Origin: a virus
Length of the DNA stretch: 26,110 nt
Reading direction: 5' to 3' (one strand)
Virus record (IMG/VR): IMGVR_UViG_3300031972_000150
Span: 1 to 26,110 of that record
Shown in pieces: positions 2,247 through 15,652 of the stretch (the first letter of the stretch is position 1; each line of letters starts with the position of its first letter). The notes under the pieces were generated by a model, which did no database searches, was not told where the DNA came from, and saw nothing but the letters and a program-made list of their open reading frames with translations. The position numbers and the translations under genes are program-made.

Positions 2247-3695
2247 TTAGTATACTCCACCGTCGAGCGTACCTGTTGTCATGTTGTCTGCGTTAAGTGT
2301 TGAGTTTGATTGTAAAGCTGAGTCTGCTAGTGCACCCTGTGCTGCCGTAGCGTAGTCACTAGAAGCTGTTGTAGCTGCTGTCCCTAAGCCTAACGTGCCT
2401 CTAGCAGTCGCTGCGTCAGCATCATCAATCAGTGTCAGGCCATAAGCAGATACAGCAGAGGCTGCTAAAGCTGCGTCAGCAGTTGCACCTTGAGCTGCAG
2501 TAGCATAATCACTAGAAGCCGTAGTTGCTGCTGTACCTAAACCCAGTGTGCCTCTGGCAGTGGCTGCATCTGCGTCATCAATCAGAGTTAAGCCATAGGC
2601 TGACACAGCGGAAGCAGCAAGTGCTGCATCAGCAGTAGCACCTTGTGCAGCAGTAGCGTAGTCAGCAGAGTCAAATGCTTTGACTTGTGCTAAGTTAGTG
2701 ACCTCTGAGTCCATCAGAGCGCCAGCTGCTTCTACGTTAGTTGCGTCCGTTACGTCTGCATTGTCTTCTATTGTGTCTAGTCTAGTCCCATCAGCAGCAA
2801 CGTCACGTCCATCCACAGTACCGGACAGAGTAATGTTGCCTGTAAGGTTTAGATTGCCTGTGCCAGTGATGTTGTTACTGTTGAGGTCTAAGTCTCCACC
2901 CAGTTGTGGCGATGAGTCACCGATAAGGTTAGGGTTAATTGTGTCCCATGCAGAACCGTCATAGATACGAGTGCTGTTGTCAGAAGTGTTAAAATACCAG
3001 TCACCTACAGTCAACGCAGCGCCATTACCGTCCACCGTTGGGTTGGACGACTGTGCGCCTAAGTAAAGTCCGTCGATTGCGTCCTTTGCTGCTTCAGCTG
3101 CTGTTGCGCTAGTTGCTGCCGCTGTTGCACTGTTAGATGCGTTGGTTGCGGAGGCTGAAGCGTTGGACTCTGACGTAGAAGCATTGCTTTCAGCTGTTTC
3201 TGCATCCGCTTTAGCAGATTCTGCTGCTGTCTGTGCAGTTTCTGCGGCTGTTTTGGCGGCTTGAGCTTTAGCATTGTAGTGTAGGGCTGAGTAACCTGTA
3301 GTAACTGTATCAGCTAGTGTGTATTGAGTGTCTTCTGCGGTTACTGCTAACTTCGACGCATCAGCTGCGCTGTCAGATGCTTCTGAGGCTTTTGTAGTGG
3401 CTGTTGTAGCGTGACCAGAGGCTGTGTCTCTGTAGCCTTGTGCTAAATCTCTGGCAGCTTCTGAAGCAGTCTGAGCGGTTTCTGCGGCTGTTTCAGCAGT
3501 CTCAGCAGCACCTTGTGCAACTACTGCAGCGTCCTTTGCTGTTTCAGCATCAGTTGCACTGTTGGCTGCATCTGTAGCTGAACTAGCGGCTGCATTAGCT
3601 TTAGCTGAAGCAGTGGCGGCATCTTCACCAACCTGTGAAGCTACTGCGTCTGTAGTAGCGTCACCAGTGCCACCTGTACCTCTAAAGATACCCAT
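2247..3695 (-). CDS. Tail fibre-like protein with long Ala-rich coiled coil and internal repeats
   Basis: The 482-residue product begins MGIFRGTGGTGDATTD. Residues about 20-200 are Ala/Ser/Thr/Glu-rich with AETAQTAAE-type heptads, a trimeric coiled-coil stalk. A compact region follows (YLGAQSSNPTVDGNGAALTVGDWYFNT, then SSPQLGGDLDLNSNNITG), which is common in phage fibres. The C-terminal third has a stem motif (VDGRDVAADGTRLDTIEDNADV) and two identical 51-residue repeats plus a partial third. GGAG precedes the ATG. It is the first gene after the capsid-gene terminator, so its transcript depends on read-through or an unseen promoter. It probably forms a stalk that works with the next gene's fibre. 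Confidence 0.8.
   Translation of the reverse strand: MGIFRGTGGTGDATTDAVASQVGEDAATASAKANAAASSATDAANSATDAETAKDAAVVAQGAAETAETAAETAQTASEAARDLAQGYRDTASGHATTATTKASEASDSAADASKLAVTAEDTQYTLADTVTTGYSALHYNAKAQAAKTAAETAQTAAESAKADAETAESNASTSESNASASATNASNSATAAATSATAAEAAKDAIDGLYLGAQSSNPTVDGNGAALTVGDWYFNTSDNSTRIYDGSAWDTINPNLIGDSSPQLGGDLDLNSNNITGTGNLNLTGNITLSGTVDGRDVAADGTRLDTIEDNADVTDATNVEAAGALMDSEVTNLAQVKAFDSADYATAAQGATADAALAASAVSAYGLTLIDDADAATARGTLGLGTAATTASSDYATAAQGATADAALAASAVSAYGLTLIDDADAATARGTLGLGTAATTASSDYATAAQGALADSALQSNSTLNADNMTTGTLDGGVY
2351..2656 (-). repeat. Two 153-bp in-frame direct repeats in the fibre gene
   Basis: The segments 2351-2503 and 2504-2656 are adjacent copies of exactly 153 bp encoding the same 51 residues (SDYATAAQGA ... 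AVSAYGLTLIDDADAATARGTLGLG ... TTAS). A partial copy lies at the C-terminal side. The DNA of the two copies differs at many third codon positions while the protein is unchanged. The duplication is therefore old and held by selection on the protein, not a recent slip. Confidence 0.9.
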
Positions 3696-4743: not shown

Positions 4744-5541
4744 TTATTTGACTCGACCCTCTGCGTATGCTTTTAAGATTTCATCTGATAAAGCTTGGTA
4801 ACGCTCAGGGTCTGTTCTCATAAGTTTAATAATGTCGGCCCTGCGATAAACTTTCTTACGACTACCTTCAGCACTGCCTCGTGCATTGCCTGTGTTAGCT
4901 GCCTTGAGTTGTTGCTTCCGCGACTGTTTTTCAACTGCAGCGGTCTGCTGTGCAATGTTCTTACGCTCCTTCCAGAGAGTAAACAGTTCATCAGCAGCTT
5001 CAGCATTGTACTGTTGGTCAGCTTCTACAAACAACTGAGTCCTGATCTTAGAATCTTTGATCCAGTCAGCAAACTTAGGATCTTTCAGGATGTCCTGCAT
5101 GTCCGGGTGTTTGCTGTTCAGCATCGCAAGAGATGTCTGCTTCTTGTATTGAGCAGAGTACTCTTGAGCTTCTCTGATCTTCGGGTGGTTCTCAATAGCA
5201 CGATTAACTGCTGCTTGAGGGTCCGTAAAATAGTCAATATCGTCTTCAGGCTCAACGTATTGTTGAGGTGCTTGTTGTTGTGATTGAGTCGTAATGAAAT
5301 CATCCACAACTTTACGAAGTTCACCTACCTCAGATGATTGACGCCCAAGTAGCTTCTCAGCCTCTTGGTGCATCTGTACCACTTCTTCTAGCGATTTGCC
5401 TTGGTACTTCTCTGGTACTGTAGGTTCTTCTTGTTGAGGTTGCTCAGCGTCTACCTGCTGAATCTCGTCTACTTCGTTTTCTTCAATGTTGTCTGCTTGT
5501 TCCTCTTCGGGAGGCAAGTCAACCATTGTTGCTCTTGACAT
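4744..5541 (-). CDS. Capsid scaffolding (assembly) protein
   Basis: The 265-residue product is highly acidic at the N-terminus (PPEEEQADNIEENEVDE) and Gln/Glu-rich. It continues with a helical section VPEKYQGKSLEEVVQMHQEAEKLL and a second helical, charged region, and ends in a basic C-terminal segment (RKKVYRRADIIKLMRTDPERYQ). An acidic, helical protein with a basic C-terminal helix that binds coat protein is the hallmark of phage scaffolds. It sits directly before the major capsid gene. GGAG lies about eight bases before the ATG. Like other scaffolds it would be expected inside the procapsid and absent from mature particles. Confidence 0.85.
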   Translation of the reverse strand: MSRATMVDLPPEEEQADNIEENEVDEIQQVDAEQPQQEEPTVPEKYQGKSLEEVVQMHQEAEKLLGRQSSEVGELRKVVDDFITTQSQQQAPQQYVEPEDDIDYFTDPQAAVNRAIENHPKIREAQEYSAQYKKQTSLAMLNSKHPDMQDILKDPKFADWIKDSKIRTQLFVEADQQYNAEAADELFTLWKERKNIAQQTAAVEKQSRKQQLKAANTGNARGSAEGSRKKVYRRADIIKLMRTDPERYQALSDEILKAYAEGRVK

Positions 5542-10395: not shown

Positions 10396-10746
10396 TTAGT
10401 AGAGCCACATCACGGGTGTAGTACCACGAGTGTCTACGTGTACGAAGTCCTTAGCTATGCCAATGCCGTTGAAGCCGATGTGGTTAGCTACGTTGACTAT
10501 GCGGTGTCTTTCGGCTGCGTTGGTTACTCTGATGTCAGCAGCAATACCTTGGGCGTGGGTGCCGGGAACTTCCTTGGCAGCTTCAATAGGATGTTCTGTA
10601 GGATGACGGAAGCCACTCGTGATCACAAAAGGAAAACCACAGCCCCCACGCAAACGATCTAACTTCTCTAGGAACTCTTGTTCCATACGGTTGTCACCCG
10701 TGACTTGACAATTGAACTCATCTAGAGTAAAGTACTTAAGCTTCAT
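10396..10746 (-). CDS. Endolysin, peptidase M15 family (L,D- or D,D-peptidase)
   Basis: The 116-residue product has the M15 zinc-peptidase signature: HAQGIAAD (H64 and D71) and FVHVD (H103 and D105), with SGFRHPTEHP before it. It also opens with YFTLDEFNC, the common start of M15_3 phage enzymes. It would cleave peptidoglycan cross-links or stems during lysis. It has no signal peptide, so it would need a holin to reach the wall. AGGGG lies before the ATG, and the start overlaps the preceding gene by 11 bases. Its place between the small and large terminase genes means it is expressed early in the late operon. Confidence 0.9.
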   Translation of the reverse strand: MKLKYFTLDEFNCQVTGDNRMEQEFLEKLDRLRGGCGFPFVITSGFRHPTEHPIEAAKEVPGTHAQGIAADIRVTNAAERHRIVNVANHIGFNGIGIAKDFVHVDTRGTTPVMWLY

Positions 10747-11119
10747 CTACGATTTCCCCTTCGATGACTTCGTTGTCACCCACGTCAACAGTGCCAACAC
10801 CAGTAATATTGATCTGAATAGCGTTTCTACCTGCGTCTTTCACTACGTCCTTTTCAAAAGCACCCACTGGTAGCATACGGTCCATGATTAGCTTCCATGC
10901 TGCCGCTTGATTCTTGTGTTCATTGTCCAGAGCAGCATCAAATATCGTCTCTAGGACTTTTTTTGACTTTGGTGAAGCCAGCATACGAGCTTTGTACTCG
11001 TTGATGATAGCAGCGTCACCCTTTGGTCTACCCACTTGCCCTTTGTTTCCGGGTTTTACAGCGGCTATCTCTGACTTCCGGGGTCTGCCACGACCACGCT
11101 TTTTTATTTCTGCGGTCAT
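10736..11119 (-). CDS. AT-hook DNA-binding protein, probable terminase small subunit
   Basis: The 127-residue product opens with a basic AT-hook-like stretch (GRGRPRK at 9-15) and a second one (GRPKG at 30-34). A helical core follows (AIINEYKARMLASPKSKKVLET, then LDNEHKNQAAAWKLIMDRMLP) with a beta-rich acidic tail. A short DNA-binding protein as the first gene of the packaging operon, upstream of TerL, fits a small terminase. The core resembles the many phage proteins in which AAWKLIMDRMLP marks a conserved helix. The leftward promoter at 11148-11176 lies 30 bases upstream. No direct family proof is available by eye. Confidence 0.7.
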   Translation of the reverse strand: MTAEIKKRGRGRPRKSEIAAVKPGNKGQVGRPKGDAAIINEYKARMLASPKSKKVLETIFDAALDNEHKNQAAAWKLIMDRMLPVGAFEKDVVKDAGRNAIQINITGVGTVDVGDNEVIEGEIVDEA

Positions 11120-11147: not shown

Positions 11148-11176
11148 AGTATAACACAAGTCTACACAAAAGTCAA
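11148..11176 (-). promoter_or_regulatory. Main leftward (late) sigma70-type promoter
   Basis: The minus strand reads TTGACT (11171-11176), 17 bases, then TATACT (11148-11153) with TG one base before the -10 (TGTTATACT). It faces the small-terminase gene 30 bases away. It shares AGCTTGACTTT and TATACTATA with the promoter at 6066-6094. Confidence 0.88.
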
Positions 11177-11239: not shown

Positions 11240-11377
11240 TAAAACACGAGGTAATATTCCTAATTTTCACCTATTTTGTGTCTGAGAAGCTACTACAATT
11301 ATAAACACAAGTCAACACCCTCCCCCGGTATCAACATTTGCAGACAATTGGCACGCTTTGTGCAGGGCAACACGGGT

Positions 11378-11578
11378 CGCAACCACAGTCAGCACCGGAA
11401 GTCAAGTGTTGACATGTTGGCCAGACTAGTGTAGCGACACGAGGCGCAACCATAGTCAGCGCAGGAAGTCAAGTGTTGACACGCCAGCGGATCTAGTGTA
11501 GCGACACGAGGCGCAACCACAGATGACACGGGCTGTCAAGTGTTGACAAAGTGTGTGAGCCAGTGTAGGACCCATTAG
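11378..11578 (+). repeat. Three 67-bp tandem repeats with a dyad and -35-like box
   Basis: The units are 11378-11444, 11445-11511 and 11512-11578. Each begins CGCAACCA and holds the dyad GTCAAGTGTTGAC at the same offset (11401, 11468 and 11535). Each has TTGACA followed after exactly 17 bases by TAGCGA, TAGCGA and TAGGAC. Units 1 and 2 are very similar; unit 3 has drifted. The -35-like box is perfect, but the -10-like box matches consensus at only two positions. The array may be operators, iterons of an origin, or weak activator-dependent promoters. Confidence 0.92.
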
Positions 11579-11610: not shown

Positions 11611-11638
11611 TTTTCAAGTGTAAAAATATGCGTATAAT
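11611..11638 (+). promoter_or_regulatory. Rightward early promoter
   Basis: A perfect TATAAT at 11633-11638 is preceded by TTTTCA (11611-11616) with a 16-base spacer. Transcription would start near 11645, between this box and the first early gene's GGAG at 11660. The TATAAT lies exactly 67 bases after the TAGGAC of the third repeat. Confidence 0.75.
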
Positions 11639-11672: not shown

Positions 11673-11873
11673 ATGCACGAGACAAGCAAGCAGATCATAA
11701 GAGACCTACCGCATTACACTGATGCACAATTGCGACAGCTTAGAGGCATGCTCGCGCTAGACGCATACGGTGCTGAAGTAGGGACACAAGTAGCGCGTCA
11801 CGTATTCGCTGAGTGCGACAGACGCGAAGCATTGATGGCTGAAGTAATGACACAAGTAGAGGAAGCAGTCTAA
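11673..11873 (+). CDS. Small unknown early protein
   Basis: The 66-residue product begins MHETSKQIIRDLPHYTDAQL and is helical and mildly charged, ending MTQVEEAV. A longer frame opens at 11628, but that ATG overlaps the TATAAT of the promoter and would not be in the transcript. The ATG at 11673 has GGAG nine bases upstream. Its stop overlaps the next start (TAATG). As the first gene of the rightward operon it is placed to act early in infection; I recognise no family. Confidence 0.75.
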   Translation: MHETSKQIIRDLPHYTDAQLRQLRGMLALDAYGAEVGTQVARHVFAECDRREALMAEVMTQVEEAV

Positions 11874-13314: not shown

Positions 13315-13535
13315 TAGGCTATGACCATGAGTTTTATAGCGGCTACACTGGCGATGAGTACAGCTTTTATCTGAACCATGACGGTGATGATTATGTATTC
13401 GAGGATCTAAAGATCAATGGCGTACCGAAGCATAATGAGGATGTCAGCAATCGTGAGTATCTGGACATGCTACAATGCTTAGACGATCACAAGTGGCTAT
13501 GGGCTGACGAAGATACAGCGAGGCGCAGACGATGA
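13311..13535 (+). CDS. Small acidic, Tyr/Asp-rich protein
   Basis: The 74-residue product reads MIGYDHEFYSGYTGDEYSFYL, then NHDGDDYVFEDLKINGVPK, and ends in a basic tail ARRRR. It is strongly acidic and aromatic in its first half, a composition seen in DNA-mimic or other early phage inhibitor proteins, though composition alone proves nothing. It is linked to both neighbours by ATGA overlaps. Confidence 0.75.
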   Translation: MIGYDHEFYSGYTGDEYSFYLNHDGDDYVFEDLKINGVPKHNEDVSNREYLDMLQCLDDHKWLWADEDTARRRR

Positions 13536-14011
13536 ATCAATTTATCCTAAGCAGAGATCCGAAGCAGTCTGCAGCGTGGCTCTGTAATTCACATTCGGTC
13601 AAACAGCCGCTTGAACAGGCACAAATGCTCAGTAGCTGTCACAGGCTCTTAGAGACGCCACAGGCGGACTTTGTGTACAAGATGGCCCATGCTAACCACC
13701 CATGCACAAAGTGGCTCAGATCGTCTCAGATTGCCTACAAATACGGCTTAGAGTACCTAGAGGCAATGTTTGCAGAGTATACGCACCGCTATGGCAAGAT
13801 CCACAAGACGGAACGTGAGATTCTGCCATACTTGCGACACGTACCCGAAGCACTGCCAGATCTGCCATGGGAAGATCCACCGCAATGCTTCGGTGATCAT
13901 CAAGAGTGTAGAGGAGATGATGTTGTGGAAGCGTACCGCAAGTACTACAAAGCGAGACGAAACGAGATCAAAATGGAATGGACTAACAGGGAGAAACCAC
14001 AATGGCTGTAG
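13532..14011 (+). CDS. Pyr_excise-like phage protein
   Basis: The 159-residue product has the N-terminal signature of a widespread phage and archaeal family: F-x-L-x-x-D-P followed by an H-x-V-K element (here FILSRDPKQSAAWLCNSHSV, H21 and K24) and LEQAQMLSSCHRLL. Databases often group this family with pyrimidine-dimer DNA glycosylase (PF03013), but its members differ from T4 DenV and the enzymatic role is uncertain. The C-terminal half has an aromatic, proline-rich region (ALPDLPWEDPPQCFG) and a basic helix (YRKYYKARRNEIKMEW). If active it would act on damaged DNA in a sunlit host. Confidence 0.6.
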   Translation: MNQFILSRDPKQSAAWLCNSHSVKQPLEQAQMLSSCHRLLETPQADFVYKMAHANHPCTKWLRSSQIAYKYGLEYLEAMFAEYTHRYGKIHKTEREILPYLRHVPEALPDLPWEDPPQCFGDHQECRGDDVVEAYRKYYKARRNEIKMEWTNREKPQWL

Positions 14012-15468: not shown

Positions 15469-15652
15469 GGCGTGTAATGAGATCCTAGAGGACGCAGAGT
15501 TGACACGTAAAGACCCAAATGGTGACTTCTACGACCTATGCAATATCTGCTACAACAGTTCACAAGCTTGCGAATGGGAGGACGATAGTTTTTTTGATGA
15601 CTTCACAAGAAAACACTTGACAACGGAGGACAACTATGATACCCTCTACTAA
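15458..15652 (+). CDS. Small zinc-finger protein
   Basis: The 64-residue product has two Cys pairs, C3/C6 (RCKACNEIL) and C28/C31 (LCNICYN), spaced as a four-Cys zinc finger, followed by an acidic tail (CEWEDDSFFDDF). Similar zinc-ribbon proteins occur in early phage operons and are often guessed to bind host transcription factors or DNA. AGAGGAAG precedes the ATG. Confidence 0.75.
   Translation: MRCKACNEILEDAELTRKDPNGDFYDLCNICYNSSQACEWEDDSFFDDFTRKHLTTEDNYDTLY

Follow-up and report, generated by a model that had tools for sequence, protein, structure and literature searches.

Phased 67-bp repeats of paired, promoter-like half-sites in the divergent control region of an uncultured phage, and the exchange of array types at the same slot in its relatives

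Introduction

What function might be served by three exactly phased repeats placed between the leftward and rightward genes of a phage, and which protein would bind them? The window analysed here, a 26,110-base stretch, is the uncultured virus record IMGVR_UViG_3300031972_000150, which is classed as linear and is probably a fragment; close relatives reach up to about 36 kb, some 10 kb of the genome being outside the window. The leftward genes include the large terminase and a probable small terminase (10736-11119, minus strand; assigned by position), and the rightward genes, from about 11673, comprise a small early gene and a GP88-family gene followed by a T7-like primase-helicase, a family A DNA polymerase, SSB and endonuclease I. 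The repeats occupy the divergent region between these two blocks. A first-pass annotation had proposed for them an operator array for early-late switching, iterons of a replication origin, or activator-dependent tandem promoters. GC skew switches at the array and flips again near 23.7 kb, where the genes turn, and since the switch follows gene direction, it carries no independent weight in favour of an origin and was rejected as proof of one.

Anatomy of the repeat array

Repeat comparison and Tandem Repeats Finder (scores of 215-228) delimit three units that together span 11367-11567, with copies spaced by exactly 67 and 67 bases and the second and third copies 79% and 70% identical to the first (Table 1). 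The phasing described in the first-pass annotation is thereby borne out, as are the dyad starts it gave at 11401, 11468 and 11535, and the fixed 17-base distance from TTGACA (11409, 11476 and 11543) to a TAG-N3 box that reads TAGCGA, TAGCGA and TAGGAC. The dyad core, GTCAAGTGTTGAC, occurs nowhere else in the window and appeared in 0 of 2000 dinucleotide shuffles of the intergenic region. What had been missed is that a further conserved element flanks the dyad on either side, 12 bases beyond its TTGACA/TGTCAA arms, and that a fourth CAAGTGT stands at 11615, within the -35 region of the candidate early promoter.

The 15-bp dyad sits inside a larger mirrored composite in which the half-site TTGACW-N12-TRTGNTWG faces both left and right. 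Each unit is laid out as a TRTGN mirror, 12 bases, TGTCAA (or AGTCAA), 3 bases, TTGACA, 12 bases and a TRTGN-like element, and a linker of about 14 bases brings the total to 67. The leftward half-sites of the window fit TRTGN; in the rightward ones the sequence is TAGTG or CAGTG, a partial fit. In the distant relatives L162, L166 and L177, TATGCTA stands constantly 12 bases from TTGACA, reading outward from the dyad. Gap scans of both strands gave 45 matches at a gap of 12 and at most 3 at every other tested gap in ten dyad-type slots, and 71 at a gap of 12 against at most 21 at other gaps in sixty other slots, counts that come from related phages and hence are not independent of each other. 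Conservation 3' of 220 distinct TTGACA contexts peaks at T-R-T-G-N-T-A-G, starting 13 bases past the hexamer. The earlier suggestion that selection acts on the dyad and its spacing gains support from the relatives, in which the dyads recur at a pitch of 67 (also 63, 69 and 79), the filler differs and the inner gap of 12 bases is strict.

A hairpin or RNA role of the array was rejected on z-scores of merely -1.7 (DNA) and -2.3 (RNA). Elsewhere in the window, a 153-bp tandem repeat of 2.3 copies (2313-2664) lies within a large leftward structural gene (2247-3695), and the first early ORF holds a 22-bp direct repeat (91%; 11772-11793 and 11838-11859).

Table 1. Sequence features of the divergent control region, in window coordinates
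Feature	Position	Strand	Basis or remarks
Candidate promoter P_L, terminase/late block	11148-11176	-	TTGACT-17-TATACT, TGTGT extended -10
Conserved AT-rich block TTCCTAATTTTCACCTATTTTGTG...CTACTACAATT	11257-11300		Comparison with relatives
Degenerate leftward half-site, left edge	11287-11315	-	TTGACT-N12-TGTAG-TAGCTT; kept in type A and type B relatives
Conserved C-tract CCCTCCCCCGG	11318-11328		Between AT-rich block and array
Single degenerate sigma54-like element, putative type-B array remnant	11348-11364	+	TTGGCACG-N4-GTGCA
67-bp unit 1	11367-11433	+	Repeat comparison, Tandem Repeats Finder
Leftward half-site, unit 1	11377-11405	-	TTGACT-N12-TGTGG-TTGCGA
Rightward half-site, unit 1	11409-11437	+	TTGACA-N12-TAGTG-TAGCGA
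67-bp unit 2	11434-11500	+	Repeat comparison, Tandem Repeats Finder
Leftward half-site, unit 2	11444-11472	-	TTGACT-N12-TATGG-TTGCGC
Rightward half-site, unit 2	11476-11504	+	TTGACA-N12-TAGTG-TAGCGA
67-bp unit 3, diverged	11501-11567	+	Right part corresponds, in the window, to the right-boundary element conserved in relatives
Leftward half-site, unit 3	11511-11539	-	TTGACA-N12-TGTGG-TTGCGC
Rightward half-site, unit 3	11543-11571	+	TTGACA-N12-CAGTG-TAGGAC; relatives: TTGACA-N12-TATGT-TGGACC
Candidate early promoter P_R	11611-11638	+	TTTTCA-16-TATAAT; CAAGTGT at 11615-11621

Promoter likeness without a -10

TTGACA, a 17-base spacer and TRTGN together make up the -35 and extended -10 of a sigma70 promoter. 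All three rightward half-sites of the window carry TTGACA and the leftward ones TTGACA or TTGACT, and the spacing to the extended -10 (a gap of 12 plus 5) is strict across relatives, with the rightward sites of the window fitting in part. The -10 hexamer is what the array lacks: T stands at position 6 in 7 of 95 array half-sites, and TANNNT in no slot half-site. In the window and six relatives, TTGACW-N12-TRTGN sites outside the slot nearly all continue into TANNNT and lie at expected promoter places (the exception, at 4748 on the plus strand, is common to L083's genome), and those within the slot never do so. The layout of the half-sites is that of the -35 plus extended -10 of the phage's own candidate promoters. 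Judged by their letters, the array half-sites are promoter-like sites without a functional -10, a likeness to a sigma70 code that the host may or may not use; because the -10 is missing we class the array as promoter-like rather than as promoters.

At promoters that depend on an activator, it is usually the -35 that is missing and the -10 that is retained. Of the three first-pass proposals, activator-dependent tandem promoters fare worst, given that 88 of the 95 half-sites have no T at position 6 of the -10 and that the sites face both ways. Two candidate promoters of the form TTGACW-N12-TRTGN-TANNNT, both conserved in L083's genome, were noted elsewhere in the window, one ahead of late structural genes (6094-6066, minus strand) and one ahead of SSB and replication genes (15617-15645, plus strand).

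One slot, three types of array

In related uncultured phages the slot is flanked by TerS, read leftward, and by the early genes, read rightward. Most of 64 distinct relatives have the AT-rich block and C-tract on its left and TTGACAAGTGTGTGAGCCTATGTTGGACC, itself one half-site, on its right. Its filling falls into three types: half-site dyads (type A), TTGGCAYG-N4-TTGC elements (type B; TTGGCA-N6-TTGC gave 93 matches at a gap of 6 and at most 2 at other gaps), and clusters of 7-10 DnaA boxes per slot (type C). Some slots mix array kinds. DnaA boxes number 213 in the slot regions of the 64 distinct relatives versus 5.7 in shuffles, and whole-genome searches placed the array motifs only or almost only in the slot, as with 9 of 9 DnaA boxes in G011 (35 kb), all TTGGCA units of G005 and 3 of 3 dyads in the window. 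The window itself has no match to the sigma54 promoter form TTGGCAY-N5-TTGC, one degenerate copy standing at 11348, and zero TTATNCACA boxes.

According to the first-pass annotation, relatives with the same gene order and no repeats would speak against a function. Many relatives do lack the dyad, and to that extent the objection holds; in these the same slot is filled by other arrays, and to that extent it falls away. These comparisons indicate that it is the slot that is conserved rather than its sequence. On a tree of the GP88 protein, with cut-offs for array type set by the analyst, the types fall into clusters, yet a minimum of 16 changes is required overall, and many branches are weak.

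The type-C slots resemble bacterial-type origins, here in phages whose replisome is T7-like. The G011 boxes, of consensus sequence, are those of locus L072 (G011:C1:18254-18432). Between TerS and GP88, the slots of L049, L031, L034, L020 and L089 hold up to 10 elements like the sigma54 consensus, partly paired in inverted orientation at a distance of about 23 bp, and in some cases two DnaA boxes stand at the centre of the array. The 36,563-base contig of G005, classed as linear, repeats the slot motifs at both of its ends (C1:45-175 and 36044-36202) and is therefore probably circular or terminally redundant. A DnaA-trio in the left block was considered and dropped, as CTACTA is present there in the orientation opposite to what we take to be that of the known element.

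Candidate binders

Across slot types, identity is about 80% for the T7-like primase-helicase, polymerase, SSB and endonuclease I. Core replication proteins are thus constant while the repeats vary, and no phage-encoded initiator was found that varies with them, such as an iteron origin with its own initiator would have. Nor was any early gene found that follows the dyad type, being common to all dyad-type phages and absent from others; a phage-encoded cognate regulator was rejected on this ground, and a host protein as binder would lead one to expect just this. No helix-turn-helix regulator turned up in the Pfam or PHROGs scans of ORFs; many small ORFs had no match there, and the roughly 10 kb beyond the window would add more. 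Likewise no T7-type RNA polymerase was found in 12 relatives, a weak negative, as the control genomes also gave no match. Because no phage protein was found that coevolves with the arrays and all three arrays resemble sites of host proteins, we favour host factors as the probable binders. One product of the window, encoded at 13532-14011, is a DNA binding protein by PHROGs and a pyrimidine dimer DNA glycosylase (PF03013) by Pfam.

A docking site at a probable origin, and its rivals

The reading we prefer, at a rough probability of 0.4, is that the array would be a cis-acting docking site in a conserved slot, probably the replication origin, composed of sites that resemble those of host machines. 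Each 67-bp unit would present two sigma70-promoter-like half-sites back to back, and with the -35 and extended -10 contacts kept and the melting letters of the -10 gone, host RNA polymerase, or another factor sharing its footprint, might bind with no productive transcription. A T7-like replisome for which no T7-like RNA polymerase was found suggests that origin opening is left to host machines, which would be called in by polymerase-like sites here and by sigma54-like sites or DnaA boxes in sister phages. Opening would take place next to the conserved AT-rich block, with bound polymerase helping; a closed polymerase complex makes no primer, so the step from such sites to origin opening is conjecture. 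The AT-rich block, which might serve as the unwinding region of a DnaA-type origin, lies beside the slot in the window and its relatives, and an origin is favoured because this block, the DnaA clusters in the identical slot, the T7-like replisome and the undetected phage RNA polymerase fit together. Among the first-pass proposals it is the origin that the DnaA-box clusters favour, although they could also titrate DnaA. We are more tentative about the broader notion of one modular cis-element, its filling swapped among sigma70 sites unable to melt, sigma54 sites and DnaA boxes, at which host polymerase or DnaA, and not a phage initiator, would be gathered at the origin or titrated.

The array could instead be an operator, with a DNA-binding regulator of host or phage bound to TTGACW-N12-TRTGNTWG, cooperatively on paired half-sites, and switching P_L and P_R between early and late expression. 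This is possible, if the less probable course: the array lies between the two candidate promoters, P_L contains TTGACT-N12-TGTGT with a similar 12-base filler, CAAGTGT stands in the -35 of P_R, and the mirrored symmetry would suit a dimer or tetramer. However, the ORFs scanned gave neither a helix-turn-helix match nor an early gene specific and common to all dyad-type phages, the corresponding promoter region of close relatives has no CAAGTGT, and an operator alone leaves the replacement by DnaA boxes or sigma54-like sites in the same slot unexplained. The arrays might also be sponges, titrating polymerase holoenzyme, sigma54 holoenzyme and DnaA as phage copies rise and so shutting down host programmes. 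All three types resemble host-factor sites, none looks transcriptionally productive, and each occurs in several copies restricted to the slot. With three to ten sites in a genome, however, little of an abundant polymerase would be titrated early in infection, and a sponge has no need for one conserved place between fixed flanking elements; we rate it below the operator, though both are serious rivals.

A terminase recognition or cutting region would also explain conserved flanking elements next to a probable small terminase gene. Yet the small terminase remains 85-90% identical in many phages with a wholly different array kind (L086, L089, L144 and L117), both flanking genes stand on one contig in 64 distinct contigs, and full-length contigs break at many different places; the slot is therefore not an obligatory physical end, and we regard a packaging site as improbable. 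Least credible by far is a neutral, functionless tandem duplication of intergenic DNA. The 70-79% likeness among the repeats of the window is what a decaying duplication would show, but the dyad and the 12-base gap persist in distant relatives whose filler is quite unlike, and the shuffles never produced the dyad core.

Should the slot prove to be the origin, phages with a T7-like replisome, apparently without an RNA polymerase of their own, must open it in some other way than T7, and the exchange of promoter-like, sigma54-like and DnaA-box arrays beside constant replication proteins would amount to an experiment of nature, testing which host machines are able to open it. For the window it is predicted that the units bind sigma70 polymerase without opening.

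Comparison with known systems

Iteron and DnaA-box origins of plasmids, phages and bacteria are built of repeated binding sites. The slots share with them repeats beside a conserved AT-rich block and, in sister phages, 7-10 DnaA boxes at the same place; unlike them, they have no identified initiator gene, and the window has no DnaA box of the above form and a promoter-like repeat unit. At the primary origin of T7, promoters and then an AT-rich stretch prime replication; T7-like replisome genes are present here, whereas no T7-type RNA polymerase was found and the sites look like those of host sigma70, without a -10. The sopC centromere of the F plasmid, like the phage array, is made of tandemly repeated units some tens of bases long that each contain a short inverted repeat, but the genes scanned yielded no recognisable partition protein and the gene content is of lytic type.

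The nearest functional parallel is the promoter islands of E. coli, which bind RNA polymerase yet are nearly silent (PMC3661553). Both have dense promoter-like signals, with polymerase binding and little transcription shown there and predicted here. The structure differs: promoter islands are at least 300 bp long, irregular, AT-rich by their authors' account and able to form open complexes (PMC3661553), whereas the phage sites are regular, paired and without a -10, in DNA of 50-60% GC. The type-B units match the sigma54 promoter consensus and spacing, TGGCAC-N5-7-TTGC (PMC12316311), though the host may or may not have sigma54; unlike sigma54 promoters, they form tandem and inverted arrays of 3-10, and the window holds only one degenerate copy.

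Occurrence beyond this group of phages

Open-access literature on phage origins with DnaA boxes, phage sigma54 arrays and T7-like origins lacking a polymerase held nothing like the array, most subscription papers lying outside this set. The nearest cultured relative by polymerase is Pelagibacter phage HTVC103P (50%), whose annotated genes in the first 16 kb all run in one direction, so there is no comparable slot there. A motif of host chromosomes was rejected: a search for twin dyads in one genome per species, covering 84,980 species, returned five matches, and the four inspected were simple local repeats, not array-like. In a large intergenic region of a 94,888-base contig from a different phage (L171/L203), two TGTCAAGGGTTGACA dyads lie 71 bases from each other; TAGCATA precedes one of them, and TATGCT follows it at 12 bases. 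This occurrence in an unlike phage suggests a binder common to unlike phages, as a host factor would be. Many copies of TAGCATACT were also seen in a 2.5-kb intergenic region at L203 (7700-8300; contig IMGVR_UViG_3300038548_000082, about 44 kb).
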